Shown: positions 32,962-51,616 of the stretch, one piece after another
How positions within the stretch are numbered: the first letter of the stretch is position 1
Layout: the number at the start of each line of letters is the position of its first letter
Virus record (IMG/VR): IMGVR_UViG_3300048996_000173
Location: 1-60,985 of that record
DNA: 60,985 nt
Strand: one strand, 5' to 3'
DNA from: a virus
Notes under the pieces: generated by a model
What the model was told of the DNA's origin: nothing
What the model saw: only the letters and a program-made list of their open reading frames with translations
Database searches by the model: none
Translations under genes and position numbers: made by a program

Positions 32962-32976
32962 ACTCTGTGATAGAGT
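32946..32976 (+). promoter_or_regulatory. Rightward promoter, probably leaderless
   Basis: TTGCGG (32946-32951), 19 bases, TAGAGT (32971-32976), seven bases before the ATG at 32984. It overlaps the leftward promoter. The inverted repeat actct-gtgat-agagt (32962-32976) covers its -10 and may be an operator. Confidence 0.55.
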
Positions 32977-32983
32977 GATTCTC

Positions 32984-33328
32984 ATGACTGACGAACTCCT
33001 CGGCCTGGCCGAGCTCGCGGAGCTGTACGGCGTCACCAAGGCCACCGCGAGCAACTGGTCCCGCCGGCACACTTTCCCTCAACCCCACCAGCACCTGAAG
33101 ATGGGTCCCGTCTGGCTGAAGTCGGACGTGGTCGCCTGGCGCACGCCGGCGACACAGCAGAAGTGGGTCCTGACCTGCGGATCGTGTGCGAGCCCGAGTA
33201 TCTTCCTGGTCGGGATCGGCTTCGGAGCCATCACCTACGACTGCCACGCCTGCGAAGCGCAGACAACCCTAGCCGCCACTCAAGGGGAGCCCCTTGGAGT
33301 GACGCTGATCGTGAAGGAGTCCAAGTGA
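32984..33328 (+). CDS. AlpA/MerR-like HTH regulator with zinc-ribbon C-terminus
   Basis: 114 aa from ATG 32984. LLGLAELAELYGVTKATASN (residues 5-24) then WSRRHTFPQP and VWLKSDVVAW is the winged helix-turn-helix of small excisionase/AlpA-like regulators. The C-terminal part has CGSC and CHAC, a probable zinc ribbon. It sits at the divergent promoter and would be first gene of the rightward operon. Likely controls the switch of both promoters, or helps origin binding. Confidence 0.75.
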   Translation: MTDELLGLAELAELYGVTKATASNWSRRHTFPQPHQHLKMGPVWLKSDVVAWRTPATQQKWVLTCGSCASPSIFLVGIGFGAITYDCHACEAQTTLAATQGEPLGVTLIVKESK

Positions 33329-35832
33329 CCGAGCCGTCATTCCTGGAGGCCCGCGGCCTGGGGAAGGTCGTCGCTCCGCACGGCGGGCCGGCGTCCGCTG
33401 CCCGCCTGGTCGAGAAGTACGGCTGCCACGTCCATCCGCTCCGGCTCGGCACGAAGGCGCCGGCCACCGAACACGGAACCTCCGACGCCGTACTGAGCGC
33501 CGCGGCGATCACCGGTAACTACGGTGTCAACGCTGCGAAGTCGCAGATCGTCGCCGTTGACCTCGACGACTACGTGCCCGACAACCTCTGCGACGAGTTC
33601 CTCGCGGAGTTCGAACTGCCGCCGACCTTCACGGTCCGGACTGGCTCGGGCGGCCGCAGCCTCTGGTACCGGGCGCCCGGGGATGTCACCCTGCGCCAGA
33701 AGCTCGGCATGTGGACCGGCGTCGACATCAAGGCCGGCAACTCTTACGTGCTCGGCCCTGGGAACAAGCTGGCCGGCAGTGAGCTGAAGCCCGGCGCGAC
33801 CGGCGACGGCACCTACTCCTTCGACAAGGACTCACCGAAGGAGTTCGCTCCGCTCCCGCAGAAGCTCGTCGACGCGCTGACGGTCAAGCCGGCCACGGTC
33901 TCCGTGCAGTCCACCGGCGAGTCCGCGGAGTACGCCGAGCTCAGCGACAGCCTGAAGGAGCGCGCGGACCAGTACGCGCGAGACTCGATCGCCCGAGAGC
34001 TCGAAACTGTTCGCGCGCTCGGGGAACTGGGCGACAATGAGCGGAATTCCGACGACGACGGCTGGGAGAGCGGAACCTGGCATGCCGCCGGCGCGATCGC
34101 TTCGCTGGTCAAGGCCAGCTGGAACGCCATGTCGTACGACGACGTCATCGAGCAGTGGCGCGAGGCAGTGCCGGGCGACGGATCGAAGTGGCACTCGCAC
34201 GGCGTCGGCATGCTGCCGCGGACGATGGTCAACGACGACTTCCCGGCGCGCGTCTGGCCAAAGTCGATCGAGGAGGAGCTCGACTGGTGGGTGGAAGGTA
34301 CCTACCGCCAGGTGGGTTTTCGCGAGGCCGGTGGTAGCGACGAGGCGCCGCCGGCCGAGCCCGTAGTCGTCGAGGAGGACCCGAACGACTGGCCGAAGGA
34401 AGCCTGGAACGAAGAGGGCCACGTCCAGCGCGGGGCTCGCTGGAGCGCCGGAGCCCTCCGCTGGCTGAAGGACGAGGAGACCTGGGTCACGTACGACCAG
34501 ATCCGCTGGGTCCGCGACAAGACCGCGGGCGCCTACGCCGTCCAGCAGGGGATGAAGGTCGCCCGCTGGACGGAGCTCAAGAACTACGACGCGACGCCCC
34601 AGGTCGACGAGAAGACCGGCCAGGCGAAGCCGAACAGCTCCGAGCAGGACAAGTTCGTCAAAGCCCTCTCGGATCAGTCGACCAGCATGATGTTCGACCG
34701 GGCCTCCCGCGCGCTGGCGCTGTCCGGCGAGCTGACCGCCCTGTCGACGGACTTCGACCGCGACCCGCTGGTCATCGGCGCGCTGAATGGCGTCGTCGAC
34801 CTCCGCACCGGTGAGCTCACCCCGCCGGCGCCGGAGCTGATGGTCAGTCATGTCGCGCCGGTCCGGTTCGACCCGGCCGCCACGGCGCCGCGATTCCTGC
34901 AGTACCTGGAGGAATCGCTACCGGATCCGGAGGTTCGGTCGTACCTGAAGCGCGTCATGGGCTACTCGATCACCGGGAGCGTCGCCGAGCAGGTGATGTT
35001 CATCCACCACGGAAAAACCAGTAACGGCAAGTCGGTCCTGTTCAAGGTGCTTTCGGCTGCGCTTGGTGAATACGCCGGCGGCGCCGACCCGAAGGCGCTG
35101 ATCGAGACCAGGAACGAGCAGCACAGTGCGCACATCGCATCACTCTACGGTCCGCGTTTTCTGACAATGAGCGAAACGGCGCGTGGTGCCCGGCTCAGCG
35201 ACGTTCTGATCAAGAACATCACTGGTGCCGACACCGTGACGGCGCGAAAGCTCTACAAGGAAAACGAAGACCTGGAAATCACCGGTAAAATCCACATGGC
35301 GACGAACCATCTTCCGCACATCGTCTCGTCGCCGTCGACAAATCGCCGAATCCAGCTCATTCACTGGCCGGTCGAAATCGCCGAGGAGAAAATCGACCTG
35401 CAGCTCGCGAGCAAGCTGATCGCAAACGAGCTCGAGGGCATCTTCACCTGGCTGGTCGAGGGGGCGGTCGAGTGGTGGACGACGCTCGCCGACGCTCAGG
35501 GGAAGCCCGTCCGCCGTGGAGGCCGGCCGTCCGGGCTGGCGATGCCTCACCAGGTGCTCGTCGACACCGCGAACTACCTCCGCGGCGAGGACGACATCCT
35601 GGAGTGGCTGGAGGAGCGCACGGAGACCTCCGACGCCATCGAGTCCACCGGCAACCTGTACCGCGACTACCGGACGTGGGCCGAGGCGCGCGGGGTGCGC
35701 AGTCCACTGACCCAGCGGGCCTTCACGACCGACCTGGAGACCTCCGGCGAGCTCGAGCGCGGCCGGACGAACGACAGGAAGGGTTTCAAGGTAGCTCTGA
35801 AGCCACTGCAGAAGACTTGGTTCCAAGGTTAG
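33325..35832 (+). CDS. Primase-polymerase with SF3 (D5-like) helicase
   Basis: 835 aa from GTG 33325, overlapping the regulator stop (GTGA). The N-terminal 250 residues are an archaeo-eukaryotic primase/polymerase domain: VAVDLDDY for metal binding, SGGRSLWYRAPGD and GVDIKAGNSYVLGPGN. From about residue 500, FLQYLEESLPDPEVRSYLKR starts the D5 region, then FIHHGKTSNGKSVLF (Walker A) and NITGADTVTARKLYKENED, typical of superfamily 3 helicases. This starts and unwinds DNA for phage replication. The lower-GC codon use at 34990-35400 is noticeable. Confidence 0.92.
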   Translation: MTEPSFLEARGLGKVVAPHGGPASAARLVEKYGCHVHPLRLGTKAPATEHGTSDAVLSAAAITGNYGVNAAKSQIVAVDLDDYVPDNLCDEFLAEFELPPTFTVRTGSGGRSLWYRAPGDVTLRQKLGMWTGVDIKAGNSYVLGPGNKLAGSELKPGATGDGTYSFDKDSPKEFAPLPQKLVDALTVKPATVSVQSTGESAEYAELSDSLKERADQYARDSIARELETVRALGELGDNERNSDDDGWESGTWHAAGAIASLVKASWNAMSYDDVIEQWREAVPGDGSKWHSHGVGMLPRTMVNDDFPARVWPKSIEEELDWWVEGTYRQVGFREAGGSDEAPPAEPVVVEEDPNDWPKEAWNEEGHVQRGARWSAGALRWLKDEETWVTYDQIRWVRDKTAGAYAVQQGMKVARWTELKNYDATPQVDEKTGQAKPNSSEQDKFVKALSDQSTSMMFDRASRALALSGELTALSTDFDRDPLVIGALNGVVDLRTGELTPPAPELMVSHVAPVRFDPAATAPRFLQYLEESLPDPEVRSYLKRVMGYSITGSVAEQVMFIHHGKTSNGKSVLFKVLSAALGEYAGGADPKALIETRNEQHSAHIASLYGPRFLTMSETARGARLSDVLIKNITGADTVTARKLYKENEDLEITGKIHMATNHLPHIVSSPSTNRRIQLIHWPVEIAEEKIDLQLASKLIANELEGIFTWLVEGAVEWWTTLADAQGKPVRRGGRPSGLAMPHQVLVDTANYLRGEDDILEWLEERTETSDAIESTGNLYRDYRTWAEARGVRSPLTQRAFTTDLETSGELERGRTNDRKGFKVALKPLQKTWFQG

Positions 35833-35854: not shown

Positions 35855-35904
35855 AAAACGAGGTCCCGGCCACAACGGCGGGGCCTCGTTTTGTCGTTTT
35901 AGGG
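35855..35904 (+). terminator. Terminator with alternative stem
   Basis: aaaacgagg pairs with cctcgtttt around a GC inner stem, then TTTT. The outer arms ccctaaaacg (35851-35860) and cgttttaggg (35895-35904) form a perfect 10-bp repeat that could pair instead. Follows the primase gene. Confidence 0.8.
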
Positions 35905-35908
35905 CGGC

Positions 35909-36220
35909 GTGACTCTCGAGTGACCCTCGAGTGACCCAACTTCGGCACTTGGGTCACCGCTCTGACCTGCGGTTTTAGCCAATAGTGACCCAAGTGACCC
36001 AAATCGAAGGTCAGCTTCCTCTATGGAGCATCTAGAGCTCTTCTAGAGACTCTTCCAGACTCCCCTAAGGGGACTTTTGAATATTTGGGTCACTTGGGTC
36101 ACTAGGCATAATTCAGTAGTAGAAATAAGGGTCTGACCTGGGCTTACTTCGGAGAGTTACAGTGACCCACCCTTCGTGTTGGGTCACTTTGAGCGTGAAG
36201 TTGGGTCACTCGAGAGTCAC
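35909..36220. repeat. Mirror-symmetric iteron array (GTGACCCAA), candidate origin
   Basis: Forward GTGAC copies at 35909, 35920 and 35931 (three tandem 11-bp units), 35985, 35994, and 36162. Reverse TTGGGTCAC copies at 35949, 36085, 36094, 36179, 36201, with TCGAGAGTCAC at 36210. The order is F F F, R, F F, centre, R R, F, R, R R, so the left half mirrors the right. The centre holds tctaga repeats and tcccctaagggga. No ORF of coding character covers it. It follows the primase-helicase gene. Confidence 0.8.
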
Positions 36221-36356
36221 CTGGTTGAAAACCGAAGCAAGTAAGGGGTCCGAGACATATGACCCGTACATAACTGGAGCTGCTATGCAGACCGGTCACG
36301 CGTGCGCGCGTAGCAGGGGACCCCCTCCCCCGTCAAGGGGTAAGAGGCAGGAAGTT

Positions 36357-36397
36357 TGGCACATCGGTGTCATAGGTAGGTTGGCACCAATGTGCCA
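36357..36397 (+). other. Inverted repeat
   Basis: tggcacatcggtgtca pairs with tggcaccaatgtgcca with two non-Watson-Crick positions, around a 9-base loop. No neighbour gene explains it. Confidence 0.5.
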
Positions 36398-36655
36398 CAG
36401 GTAGGGGGTTGACAGGGGTGAGCATGGTGGTGTAGTACGCATGCGTGCAGCACAGGTCATAGAGTGCACTACACACAGTGAGCACCATGTACACAAAGTA
36501 GTTGTCCATATAGTGAGATAGGCTATTGACAGGTGGGGGAATCTCAGGCAGAGTTGTCCTCATCACCACACAGCAGCACCGCAGGGCAGGCAGGGAGCAC
36601 CGCTACTACCCCACTAGGGGAAGGGGCTCACACCATGGCCCAGCAGCAGGAAACA

Positions 36656-36674
36656 GGGGGTTGACAGAACCCCC
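36656..36674 (+). promoter_or_regulatory. Hairpin holding a TTGACA box
   Basis: ggggggtt-type arm: GGGGGTT, loop GACAG, AACCCCC, a perfect 7-bp stem that contains TTGACA. The downstream region has only a weak -10 (CAATGT). Confidence 0.4.
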
Positions 36675-37049
36675 GCAGTATGGCAATGTTCTCCACAGCA
36701 CCACACAAAAACTTCACAGCGGAGGGCACGGAACAAGAGCCCCGAACGGAACACGGCAGGCAATACGGGCTGCGGCAGTTCATCCAGGTCGGCGGTTTGC
36801 AGCAGTCAGGCACATGCGAGGACACCACAACGCTCGTAAGTCTCAAGACTTATCCCCTCCGCTGTGAACACCACTGGGCAGCTGATCCCGAAAGGGCAAA
36901 GGCCCGAACCCGAAACTTGACAAGAGAATGTACGCCTCCTGAGGGCAGAAACTCAGGGCGCTCCCGCTAGCTAAGCCGATTAAGGCGACCCAGGCGAGGA
37001 CCGCGCCGGAGATGAATGCAATCCGGGTAACTAACTATGATCACGAACA

Positions 37050-48601: not shown

Positions 48602-48672
48602 ATCGGTGCAGCATGGCGGAGAGCGGTCACCCGCGGAGGGTGGCCACGCGGGTTCGAGTCCCGTCACCGATG
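48602..48672 (+). tRNA. Degenerate tRNA-like gene
   Basis: ATCGGTG pairs with CACCGAT (7-bp acceptor stem). The T arm gcggg-ttcgagt-cccgt is canonical. A 7-bp hairpin (ggtcacc, loop cgcggag, ggtggcc) takes the anticodon arm place, but the loop has G where U33 should be (centre triplet CGG). The D arm is weak, with only two good pairs. Could be nonfunctional or an unusual tRNA. No CCA encoded. Confidence 0.45.
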
Positions 48673-48707
48673 CGAAGTTCGGCGGCTTAGTCCGTCGGGC
48701 CTTAAAT

Positions 48708-48801
48708 TCGCCATTAGCTCAGTCCGGTAGAGCACCGCTTGGCCAGCCCCGCAGTGTCGGGGGTAACGCGGAGGTCCTAGGTTCAAATCCTGGATGGCGA
48801 A
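48708..48801 (+). tRNA. tRNA gene with insertion in anticodon loop
   Basis: TCGCCAT pairs with ATGGCGA, TA follows, D stem gctc/gagc, variable bases ggtc, T arm ctagg-ttcaaat-cctgg. Anticodon stem ccgc (48735-48738) pairs with gcgg (48768-48771), but 29 bases lie between instead of about 9. The extra piece holds a hairpin ccccg-cagtgt-cgggg (48747-48762). Removing about 21 bases leaves TTGGTAAC, close to a Thr GGU loop though one base long. Isotype cannot be fixed. Confidence 0.55.
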
Positions 48802-49119
48802 CGAGGTAACGAGGGATCCCGAAACCCCATCCCGCAGTGTGGAAGAGAGGGTAAGAGGGTGAGGTTCGACCTCGGTGCGGCGACCGAAAACGCCCTTCTG
48901 GTCCACGACAGGACTCGCCTTGGCGGCGCGTATCCGTCTACGTGACCCGAGCGCACTCGGGCATTCAGGCCCCGCCGGTATGCATGCTCCCCACGGTTCG
49001 ACCGTGGAACTTGGAAGCAACCGGTGGGGTCTGTCTCATTCTGCGGACAGTCTATTGACCCAATCGGCAGCAGGCTGTAGGTTTTGAGCATCAGAACTTG
49101 CAACCACCTGGAGGTTTCC
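48802..49119 (+). other. Gene-free stretch before RNA ligase
   Basis: No coding-like frame. Holds a 6-bp hairpin cccgag-cgca-ctcggg (48946-48961), ccacgg-ttcga-ccgtgg near 49000, and the promoter at 49055-49083. Confidence 0.55.
49055..49083 (+). promoter_or_regulatory. Promoter for RNA ligase
   Basis: TTGACC (49055-49060), 17 bases, TAGGTT (49078-49083), 36 bases before the ligase start. Confidence 0.7.
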
Positions 49120-50301
49120 ATGCATCTGTATGACCTGGTCGACGTCAACGAGACGACCTGGCTCTACGAGAACGGCTGGCTGAACGAGACCGAGCACCCG
49201 ACCGAGCCGCTGCGCATCCTGAACTACTCCAAGCGCGCGCAGACTGCCGTGGAGCCGTGGTCGGTCGAGTCGCTGCACCACTGCCGCGGCCTGATCTACA
49301 ACACCACCAACGGTGAGATCGTCGCCCGGCCGTTCCCGAAGTTCTGGAACTACGGCCAGGCCGGCGCCCCGATGATACCCCTGGATGCCCTTGTCCAGGT
49401 GACCGACAAGGCCGATGGCTCGCTCGGCATCATGTATCGCCGACCGAGCGACGGCGAACTGGCCATCGCCACGCGGGGCTCGTTCCTGTCGGAGCAGGCC
49501 GTCCACGCTACGCAGACCCTGTATCTGAAGCACAACGACTTCGAGCCTAATCCCGACTGGACGATGCTGTTCGAGATCGTCTACCCGGAGAACCGGATCG
49601 TGCTCGACTACGGCGCTCGCGACGACGTGGTGCTGCTGGGTGGCGTCTTGACCCACTACAAGGACCTGGTGATCCTGGGCCCGAACGGCTTTCCGGAGTG
49701 GAAAGGCCCGAAGACCGAGATCATCTACGAGGGCAACTTCGACGGCGCGCTGGCGCTGAAGATGGACCGGCCGAACTCCGAGGGCTACGTGATCCGCCGG
49801 ATGATCGACGGCGGCATGGTGAAGCTCAAGCAGGAGGACTACAAGGCCCTACACGCCGCGCTCTTCGGGCTGAACCAGCGCCGGATCTACGAGATCGTCA
49901 TGGCTGGCCGCGGCCTCGGCCAGCCGGGCCAGTACGAAGGCGTGCCCGAGTTCGACACCCTGCTGGCCCAGCTGCCCGACGAGTTCCACGACTGGGCGCG
50001 CAACCAGCGGCACCAGATCCTCGAGACGATCCGGAAGCGCGCGGATGACATCTTCGAGGAGTACGGCGCGATCGTCGAAGGCTGGAGCGTGATCTACGAG
50101 GTAGACGACCAGCGGAGCCGGAAGAAGGCATTCGCGGCCGAGGTCGCCAAGGTCAAGACGCCGTATGCGTGGGCGCTGTTCGCCATCTTCAACGGCGCCG
50201 GCCGCGACGACATCGAGGACCAGCTGCTGCACCACCTGGACAAGGACAAGGAGATCGACGCCAAGGTCCGTCCGGTCAACCAGCCGGTCGAGGAGGTCTG
50301 A
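49120..50301 (+). CDS. RNA ligase, T4 Rnl1-like
   Basis: 393 aa from ATG 49120 (CTGGAGG upstream). The nucleotidyl-transfer motif KADGS (K97 receives AMP) follows FWNYGQAG. Later ALALKMDRPNSEGYVIRR resembles motif IV (EGYVI) and MVKLKQ motif V (KxK). ATP-dependent joining of RNA 5'-phosphate and 3'-OH ends. In T4 this enzyme repairs anticodon loops cut by host nucleases. It lies beside tRNA-like genes and, three genes on, the matching kinase/phosphatase. Assigned by motif; substrate inferred. Confidence 0.85.
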   Translation: MHLYDLVDVNETTWLYENGWLNETEHPTEPLRILNYSKRAQTAVEPWSVESLHHCRGLIYNTTNGEIVARPFPKFWNYGQAGAPMIPLDALVQVTDKADGSLGIMYRRPSDGELAIATRGSFLSEQAVHATQTLYLKHNDFEPNPDWTMLFEIVYPENRIVLDYGARDDVVLLGGVLTHYKDLVILGPNGFPEWKGPKTEIIYEGNFDGALALKMDRPNSEGYVIRRMIDGGMVKLKQEDYKALHAALFGLNQRRIYEIVMAGRGLGQPGQYEGVPEFDTLLAQLPDEFHDWARNQRHQILETIRKRADDIFEEYGAIVEGWSVIYEVDDQRSRKKAFAAEVAKVKTPYAWALFAIFNGAGRDDIEDQLLHHLDKDKEIDAKVRPVNQPVEEV

Positions 50302-50302
50302 C

Positions 50303-50473
50303 GTGGCCTGGGGTCGGAAGAAGAAGCAGGACATCAAGGGCGGCAAGGGCAAGCCGAAGGAGCCGTTCGTCCCGTGCGGGAAGCCGATCCACCGGCTCGC
50401 CAAGCGGGAGAAGAACGGCTCGGTGACCACCCCGATCTGCCAGAAGCAACGTGGACACTTTGGAGGTTGCTGA
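50303..50473 (+). CDS. Small Lys-rich protein with Cys residues
   Basis: 56 aa from GTG 50303. MAWGRKKKQDIKGGKGKPKE then FVPCGKPIHRL and PICQKQRGHFGGC. C and H positions could bind zinc. Lies in the RNA repair operon. Function unknown. Confidence 0.5.
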   Translation: MAWGRKKKQDIKGGKGKPKEPFVPCGKPIHRLAKREKNGSVTTPICQKQRGHFGGC

Positions 50474-50474
50474 C

Positions 50475-50663
50475 GTGAGCAAACAGATCAGAATCCACGA
50501 CGACGGTGACGAGATCGTCTGGATCGACGTCGACGGAGAGCAGTTGCACGAGCTGAACCACGACCTCGATGGCTGGGATGGCATGAAGCGGGGGATCGAC
50601 CTGGTCGAGAAGCTCGCCAAGGCCTTCGGCGTCGAGGTCAGCTACGAGCAGGACATCGTCTGA
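50475..50663 (+). CDS. Small acidic protein
   Basis: 62 aa from GTG 50475. MSKQIRIHDDGDEIVWIDVD then a helix DGMKRGIDLVEKLAKAFGVE. Stop overlaps the kinase ATG (TGATG). Possible adaptor; no family. Confidence 0.5.
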   Translation: MSKQIRIHDDGDEIVWIDVDGEQLHELNHDLDGWDGMKRGIDLVEKLAKAFGVEVSYEQDIV

Positions 50664-51616
50664 TGTCCACACTCGTTGTAACGAGAGGCCTGCCCGGATC
50701 CGGCAAGACGACGTACGCCAGAGAGTGGGTGGCCACCTGGATCGAGACGCGGTCGCGCGTGAACCGGGACGACCTGCGCAAGATGCTCCACAGCGGCCCG
50801 AACGGCTACTCGCGCGAGCTCGAGAACGCGATCACGGCCGCCCAGGAGGCGCAGGTCACCGCGCTGCTGAAGGCTGGTCGCGATGTCATCGTCGACGACA
50901 TGAACCTCCGCCAGCAGTACGCGCGCCGGTGGGCCAAGATCGCCGACCTAGCCGGCGCCGAATTCGACGTCGTCGACCTGACCAACATCCCGGTCGAGGA
51001 GTGCATCCGCCGCGACGCCGCCCGTCTGCCGGAGGAGCGCGTCGGAGCGCGATTCATCACCGAACAGCACGTCCGCTACCTGGCCGGCAAGACGCACCCG
51101 CTTCCCTGGCCGACCAACGACTACGGCGTCGTCCCCGAGCCGTACGTGCCGCCCGGCACCGGCAAACAGGCGATCATCGTCGACCTCGACGGGACGGTCG
51201 CTCTGCTGAACGGTCGCAGCCCGTACGACGTCACCACGGTGAGCAGGGACCTGCCCAACGCACCGGTGATCCGGATCGCGCGGGACATGATGGGCATCGC
51301 TGACGAGTACGGCGACACCCTGCACATCCTCTTCACCAGCGGCCGGAGTGAGCTCGCCCGCGAGGACACGGTGGGCTGGCTGGCGGAGCACTTCTTCGGC
51401 GGTTCGGGCTATGCGTTCGAGCGCGGATGGGCCCGCCTGTTCATGCGGCCGGAGGGCGACGGCCGGCGCGACTCCGAGCTCAAGCTCGAGATCTTCAACG
51501 AACACATCCGCAACGAGTACGACGTCGTGCTCGCGCTCGACGACCGGAACCAGGTCGTTGACTTGTGGCGCTCGCTGGGACTAACGTGCTTGCAGGTTGC
51601 GCCGGGCGACTTCTGA
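50663..51616 (+). CDS. Polynucleotide kinase/3'-phosphatase
   Basis: 317 aa. GLPGSGKTT (residues 9-17) is the P-loop kinase domain; RVNRDDLRKML and VIVDDMNLRQQ are typical of T4 Pnkp. DLDGTVAL (D174, D176) begins a C-terminal HAD phosphatase, with FTSGRSE and LALDDRNQVVDLW following. Domain order matches T4 Pnkp: 5'-kinase then 3'-phosphatase. It would prepare cleaved tRNA ends for the RNA ligase upstream. Sequence-based function confident; target inferred. Confidence 0.9.
   Translation: MSTLVVTRGLPGSGKTTYAREWVATWIETRSRVNRDDLRKMLHSGPNGYSRELENAITAAQEAQVTALLKAGRDVIVDDMNLRQQYARRWAKIADLAGAEFDVVDLTNIPVEECIRRDAARLPEERVGARFITEQHVRYLAGKTHPLPWPTNDYGVVPEPYVPPGTGKQAIIVDLDGTVALLNGRSPYDVTTVSRDLPNAPVIRIARDMMGIADEYGDTLHILFTSGRSELAREDTVGWLAEHFFGGSGYAFERGWARLFMRPEGDGRRDSELKLEIFNEHIRNEYDVVLALDDRNQVVDLWRSLGLTCLQVAPGDF

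Follow-up and report, generated by a model that had tools for sequence, protein, structure and literature searches.

A mirrored iteron array directly 3' of a Prim-Pol/SF3 primase-helicase gene as the probable replication origin of an actinobacterial phage

The window analyzed here is the whole 60,985-base stretch of IMG/VR virus record IMGVR_UViG_3300048996_000173, a 61-kb virus record that includes genes for terminase, portal and tail proteins. At positions 35909-36220 it contains an array of short repeats (iterons) that starts 77 bp past the stop codon of a gene for a primase-helicase, the presumed initiator, which combines an archaeo-eukaryotic primase-polymerase (Prim-Pol) domain with a superfamily 3 (SF3) helicase. 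Sequence analysis and comparison indicate that this array is very likely the replication origin of an actinobacterial phage, bound by the adjacent Prim-Pol/SF3 helicase, which would be loaded on the mirrored arms of the array. In support of this assignment, many unrelated phages have the same architecture 3' of a homologous primase-helicase gene, and it also occurs in the crr locus of P4, in phage-inducible chromosomal islands (PICI) and Staphylococcus aureus pathogenicity islands (SaPI), in Lactobacillus phage A2 and in plasmid pRN1. The gene and the parts of the array are as follows (F, forward; R, reverse).

33325..35832, plus strand: Prim-Pol, D5_N/DUF5906 SF3 helicase and predicted C-terminal winged helix; 835 aa, GTG start at 33325
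35545..35832, plus strand: C-terminal region of the initiator, predicted winged helix with wing RTNDRKGFKV, presumed to read the iterons
35909..35957: left-hand outer cluster of iterons in the order F F F R, with an 11-bp period
35983..36004, plus strand: left inner arm, GTGACCCAA twice, 9-bp period
36005..36082: core between the inner arms, 78 bp, about 52% AT, presumed melting site
36083..36104, minus strand: right inner arm, GTGACCCAA twice, 9-bp period
36162..36220: right-hand outer cluster of iterons in the order F R R R
Sites of the left half: F35909 GTGACTCTC, F35920 GTGACCCTC, F35931, R35949, F35985, F35994
Sites of the right half: R36085, R36094, F36162 (GTGACCCAC), R36179, R36201, R36212 (GTGACTCTC)
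35983-36004 / 36083-36104: inner mirror, 22-nt arms, 100% complementary, 78 nt apart, centre 36043.5
35909-35926 / 36203-36220: outer mirror, arms 18-24 nt, these 18 nt 100% complementary, centre 36064.5

The array contains 12 sites in the order FFFRFFRRFRRR (FFFRFF, then RRFRRR), exactly the arrangement of about twelve copies that the first-pass annotation of this DNA had described, and the 18 fully complementary nucleotides of the outer arms likewise bear out its observation that the left edge returns as the exact complement at the right edge. The consensus is GTGAC(C/T)(C)NN, with 8 of the 12 sites being exact copies of GTGACCCAA, and a scan of the whole window found no exact copy of GTGACCCAA outside the array. 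The hexamer GTGACC occurs at 32 per kb inside the array versus 1.1 per kb in the rest of the window, and its 10 copies in the 312-bp array compare with a maximum of 4 in any 312-bp stretch of 100 first-order Markov sequences. The two mirrors are nested with centres 21 bp apart, so the symmetry is good though imperfect, and the right outer arm corresponds to the left outer arm less one 11-bp unit (TCGAGTGACCC). The repeat period is 9 bp in the inner pair and mainly 11 bp in the outer clusters. An iteron-agnostic detector, which looks for a 6-mer pair of 8-12 bp period that is mirrored 30-120 bp away, finds this array as the sole mirrored tandem pair in the whole window, and none of 100 shuffles of the region gives one.

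The core is AT-richer than its surroundings, with an AT content of 0.525 (measured over 36004-36083) versus 0.335 genome-wide, and most relatives are likewise AT-richer in their cores. Iterons together with an AT-richer core would also be expected of a classic iteron/DnaA-type origin served by a host initiator, and three of the seven DnaA-box-like words with one mismatch in the window fall within 200 bp of each other at 36502-36697, to the right of the array. However, the window has no exact DnaA box, its seven one-mismatch words compare with 8.85 expected and none lies inside the array, the repeats occur in both orientations, and no Rep_3-type initiator turned up among the proteins scanned. 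We therefore regard a DnaA-type origin as extremely unlikely. No HUH relaxase, as would point to a rolling-circle or hairpin origin, turned up among the proteins scanned, which covered part of the open reading frames.

The primase-helicase has Pfam matches to Prim-Pol (4e-17), D5_N (2e-17) and DUF5906 (1e-6) and a PHROG match to primase (6e-99). Its mechanical open reading frame opens earlier, at 33163; a Shine-Dalgarno-like stretch and the overlap with the upstream open reading frame suggest that translation starts at GTG 33325. The protein matches SaPI5 PrimHel (7ola) with a profile E value of 1.5e-13, and VIA-align gives a Z score of 20.5 to 7ola/7om0. An AlphaFold model of the protein has Z scores of 15-20 to the pox D5/E5 helicases and, for its N-terminus, 10.9 to the pRN1 Prim-Pol, while the top-ranked Foldseek match is the PrimPol of African swine fever virus. 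At the C-terminus the model contains helices at residues 775-788 and 797-806 and strands at 810-814 and 821-825, with a local predicted confidence (pLDDT) of about 70-80 that falls to 50 at the wing. Profile matches of this region are weak and non-significant (SaPI5 PrimHel, E 0.44; P4 alpha DNA-binding domain 1ka8, E 1.1). An alignment-free structure of the isolated C-terminus was of low confidence and was not used.

Spaced-pattern scans of 2.9 million viral contigs sought tandem pairs with a mirrored counterpart on the other side of a core of 50-110 bp. These scans returned 6 GTGACC stretches with gaps of 50-80 and 15 with gaps of 81-110, 21 CGAAGG stretches, and at least 120 GTGACG stretches at the 9-bp period as compared to 41 in a 10-bp-period control, indicating that 9 bp is favoured though not exclusive. 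By a rough estimate, chance would produce far fewer than one match to a 24-base pattern of this kind. Some of the contigs found in this way are redundant with one another, and their numbers therefore do not represent independent events; the CGAAGG tally still includes four false positives (L036, L044, L045 and L053), which are dispersed CACGAAGGACACGAAGG repeats without an initiator. The mirrored layout recurs in well over a hundred viral contigs, many of them unrelated. Two contigs returned with the spaced GTGACC pattern (L055 and L059) are coding repeats and were likewise rejected.

Among 80 fetched loci with GTGACG arrays of 9-bp period, a D5 gene has the array on its 3' side in 58, and in 57 the 3' end of an initiator gene is no more than 200 bp away from the array, as compared to 2.3% by random placement in the same loci. 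An initiator gene of the D5, VapE-like or Cch type is beside the array in 34 of the 41 GTGACG 10-bp, 15 of the 21 GTGACC and 15 of the 21 CGAAGG stretches. Relatives selected by protein give a similar picture, as a mirrored pair is present in 17 of 42 3' flanks versus 0 of 29 5' flanks, with several of these relatives being near-copies. Mirrored TGCGAAGGGG arrays with the word TGCGAAGGGGT and mirrored spacings accompany the nearest relatives of the initiator (L001-L005, L007 and L009), and Streptomyces plasmids with homologous initiators bear CGAAGG arrays as well. The exact 18-mer GTGACCCAAGTGACCCAA is present in four viral contigs. One of these contigs, L011, shares both the mirrored pair and its 100-bp offset with the window, beside a primase that is 31% identical over 268 aa, and the arrays of L012 and L013 resemble that of the window; a further 18-mer match, L014, is a lone copy in coding-like sequence and was set aside as a false positive. 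A related-locus search with three alignments gave no new loci. No DNA match to the array region was found among GenBank phages, and the exact repeat pair was not found in published literature.

These associations also bear on the possibility that the array is an operator, silencer or partition site for a regulator, such as the helix-turn-helix (HTH) protein at 32975-33328, and not an origin. The array does lie upstream of rightward early genes, and one of the genes nearby encodes a small HTH protein that has matches among excisionases/regulators. However, across unrelated phages the arrays are associated with the 3' end of a primase-helicase gene and not with a regulator, and the precedents in P4 crr, A2 and pRN1 are replication sites. 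An operator or partition role thus appears very unlikely. The first-pass annotation had put forward the HTH protein near 32984 as a binder of the array; given its matches to excisionase/regulator families, it is a less likely binder than the winged helix of the primase-helicase.

Comparison of initiators with different iteron words points to this C-terminal winged helix as the candidate reader of the iterons. In a tree built from the helicase domain only, supported branches carry three or more switches of iteron class, and the wing motif switches along with the class in all, or nearly all, three independent pairs of this tree. An RR[AS]-type wing motif is found in 14 of 15 users of CGAAGG and in 0 of 87 users of GTGACG, GTGACC or TGACGG. 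The window protein clusters with the CGAAGG users (support 89) yet its array has GTGAC iterons and its wing is of the RTN type. This combination, along with the co-change of wing and iteron class, suggests that the initiator reads the repeats with its own winged helix. A swap of the entire C-terminal module, which would place the window closer to GTGACC users, is not seen, as overall identity is 39% to CGAAGG versus 27% to GTGACC users; only the wing of the window C-terminus resembles GTGAC users.

Several observations weigh against these interpretations. The test of wing against iteron class comprises only three independent pairs (p = 0.25), and the motif was picked after inspection. Of the 42 protein-selected relatives, 25 have no match by the strict detector; some of these, such as A2, have degenerate arrays and others may have none. 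The first-pass annotation had held that absence of the repeats from close relatives would speak against it, and the relatives with the closest primases indeed lack exact GTGACCCAA and use CGAAGG, while most of them do have an equivalent mirrored array with another word. In L006, whose terminase DNA is 68% identical to that of the window, the array (236-323, word GTGTGTCT) lies upstream of the primase gene and also carries TCTGACCTGCGGTTTT, while L008 and L010, both of which are fragments, showed no array 3' of the gene. GTGACC arrays additionally occur beside VapE-like and Cch-type initiators, making three helicase types overall, and 5 of the 21 have no recognised initiator nearby. Finally, GC skew in the window is confounded by gene orientation.

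Two loci with GTGACC mirror arrays, L015 (1329-1650) and L019 (4485-4790), have the array beside Cch-type proteins composed of Prim-Pol, DUF927 and HTH_56 domains, which ties SCCmec-like helicases (those of the staphylococcal cassette chromosome mec) to the GTGACC word.

We propose a mechanism in which the primase-helicase would bind the GTGACCC(AA) iterons through its C-terminal winged helix. Because the iterons of the two arms face each other, the 78-bp AT-richer core would come to lie between two helicase assemblies of opposite orientation. The core would then be melted in an ATP-driven step, the Prim-Pol domain would prime, and two forks would depart in opposite directions, with the outer F/R clusters supplying extra loading or looping sites. 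Binding, hexamer number and directionality are taken by analogy from SaPI Rep, P4 alpha, pRN1 and the pox E5 double hexamer, and core melting is likewise something that we infer. Cooperation of the two halves through a bound protein, as suggested by the first-pass annotation, is plausible and agrees with double-hexamer models. Coding sequence to the left of the array is mostly leftward (about 27 of 31 kb) and to the right is all rightward, by a crude choice of open reading frames; forks from the array would therefore run with transcription, since coding sequence points away on both sides.

Additional elements lie within and around the array.

35855..35892: inverted repeat ahead of a T-rich stretch, with two 14-nt arms that are 93% complementary and separated by 10 nt
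35961..35976, plus strand: accessory element TCTGACCTGCGGTTTT, adjoining the inner pair
36132..36145, plus strand: degenerate second copy of the accessory element (TCTGACCTGGGCTT), direct repeat, 86%
36297..36312: alternating purine-pyrimidine tract CACGCGTGCGCGCGTA, 16 bases, one of three runs of at least 14 in the window

The accessory element TCTGACCTGCGGTTTT is conserved beside origin arrays of actinobacterial relatives (Streptomyces-type phages and plasmids) despite their differing iteron words. For example, the identical 16-mer is present in L006 and a 14-mer in the Streptomyces plasmids L270/L271, and TGACCTGC occurs within 150 bp of 10 of 18 CGAAGG arrays, these being all ten of the Streptomyces-type group, versus 0-3% in other array sets. 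The cores of most relatives contain an alternating purine-pyrimidine tract of at least 10 bases, which is found in 53 of 75 GTGACG cores, 15 of 16 CGAAGG cores and 17 of 37 cores of the 10-bp set, but in only 7 of 24 GTGACC cores, against a background of about 5%. Such a tract is absent from the window's own core, where the longest run is 4, and the tract at 36297-36312 is possibly a displaced counterpart. Two of the window's three purine-pyrimidine runs of at least 14 bases, at 36297-36312 and 36435-36449, are located just right of the array. The inverted repeat at 35855-35892 is likely the terminator of the primase gene, though it is not among the listings of an automatic terminator scan. 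The array had also been described as ending near a palindrome, which is loosely true: the palindrome TCCCCTAAGGGGA sits in the core (36061-36073), and it is the terminator-like inverted repeat that lies on the left.

A further inverted repeat (TTTGGCACAT ... ATGTGCCACA) at 36355-36400, upstream of the rightward genes, is possibly an operator. Elsewhere in the window, a tRNA-Pro(cgg) gene, an RNA-ligase-family gene (49084-50301) and a polynucleotide kinase gene (50663-51616) follow one another within 48602-51616, perhaps as a tRNA-repair set.

Comparison with pRN1 raises the question of what an initiator recognises in such mirrored arms. Deletions and mutations had placed the pRN1 origin in a 100-bp "stem-loop" located 54 bp past the Prim-Pol/SF3 gene, with a 21-nt stem and a 58-nt loop; the intact stem-loop was needed for replication and the authors state that there are no iterons (PMC4234260). 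By analogy, the mirror arms in the window could form a DNA stem-loop or cruciform whose structure, and not the repeats, is recognised by the initiator. The inner arms do pair over 22 nt with a 78-nt loop, near the pRN1 dimensions, and the region as single-stranded DNA folds far better than shuffles (z -8.9). However, such folding is expected of any mirrored iteron pair, and the arms are tandem repeats of one core rather than arbitrary complementary sequence, with complementarity near chance within one or two bases beyond them. Furthermore, exact mirror order over +-260 bp holds in only 20 of 70 GTGACG and 2 of 22 GTGACC arrays, leaving many copies unpartnered, and the pRN1 stem is itself a tandem 9-bp pair. 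Its arms TGTCCAtagTGTCCA / TGGACActaTGGACA (L269 5087-5180) constitute a mirrored TGTCCA pair of 9-bp period around a 64-bp AT-rich core, found by the same detector as the pair in the window and in 0 of 200 shuffles. We consider recognition of a cruciform to be unlikely and favour recognition of the iterons themselves. In both systems an inverted element lies 3' of the gene, with arms of about 20 nt and a 60-80-nt loop, and ORF904 of pRN1 likewise combines Prim-Pol, SF3 and winged helix in one protein, the winged helix being a prediction in the window. The two differ in that pRN1 is an archaeal plasmid with 4 copies only and without outer clusters.

These comparisons raise the prospect of one origin grammar for D5/VapE/Cch-type primase-helicases in phages, satellites and plasmids of bacteria and archaea. 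It would comprise a tandem pair, mostly of 9-bp period, mirrored over a 50-110-bp core and in most cases located shortly after the 3' end of the initiator gene, a word set by the C-terminal wing, a purine-pyrimidine tract in many phage cores, and the pRN1 "stem-loop" as one such pair; we regard this generalization as evenly poised between right and wrong. While the array belongs to a known origin type, the wider unification, including the pRN1 "stem-loop" as mirrored iterons, seems new to the literature searched. The sequence signature could be used to locate replication origins in unculturable metagenomic phages and phage-plasmids. It would additionally extend the PICI-type origin to full-size phages, give the mapped pRN1 origin a simple reinterpretation, and pair iteron words with candidate specificity residues in the initiator winged helix.

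The proposal that iterons beside a primase-helicase mark an origin is well supported by comparison with phages, P4 crr, PICI/SaPI, A2 and pRN1. The same systems argue against the first-pass view that a two-armed mirror is not ordinary iteron design, as the mirror is characteristic of this initiator class in SaPI/PICI, P4 crr, A2 and pRN1. The initiator helicase of PICI/SaPI, Rep, reportedly uses its C-terminal domain for iteron binding and apparently binds as two hexamers (PMC6092414; PMC7581432), and in 2018 the PICI-type origin was described as present in no other known replicon (PMC6092414). The window resembles it in having the array directly 3' of the initiator gene with mirrored arms around an AT-richer core, and in encoding a D5/SF3 helicase related to SaPI Rep by SaPI5 PrimHel profile and fold. 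It differs in being a 61-kb phage record and not a small satellite island, and the C-terminal domain that binds iterons in PICI/SaPI has as its counterpart a winged-helix-like fold known by prediction only. In P4 (NC_001609), annotated type 1 repeats in crr lie directly 3' of alpha, with + + at 9-bp spacing and then - - +, and GGTGAACA is similar to AGTGACCC. However, P4 has a Toprim-type primase fused to an SF3 helicase (PMC4234260) whereas the window has an archaeo-eukaryotic Prim-Pol, and P4 needs crr plus a distant ori while the window shows one mirrored array, with a non-mirrored second site possible and the record perhaps incomplete. In Lactobacillus phage A2 (AJ251789), the annotated rep_origin comes right after a homologous primase gene and has inverted GGGAGGAT repeats round an AT-rich core, though the spacing is less regular and the host is low-GC. 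The putative SCCmec Cch2 origin likewise has iterons directly downstream of an initiator helicase that binds them with its C-terminal domain, but this helicase is of another family and its iterons are short direct repeats (AAGTG) (PMC7581432).
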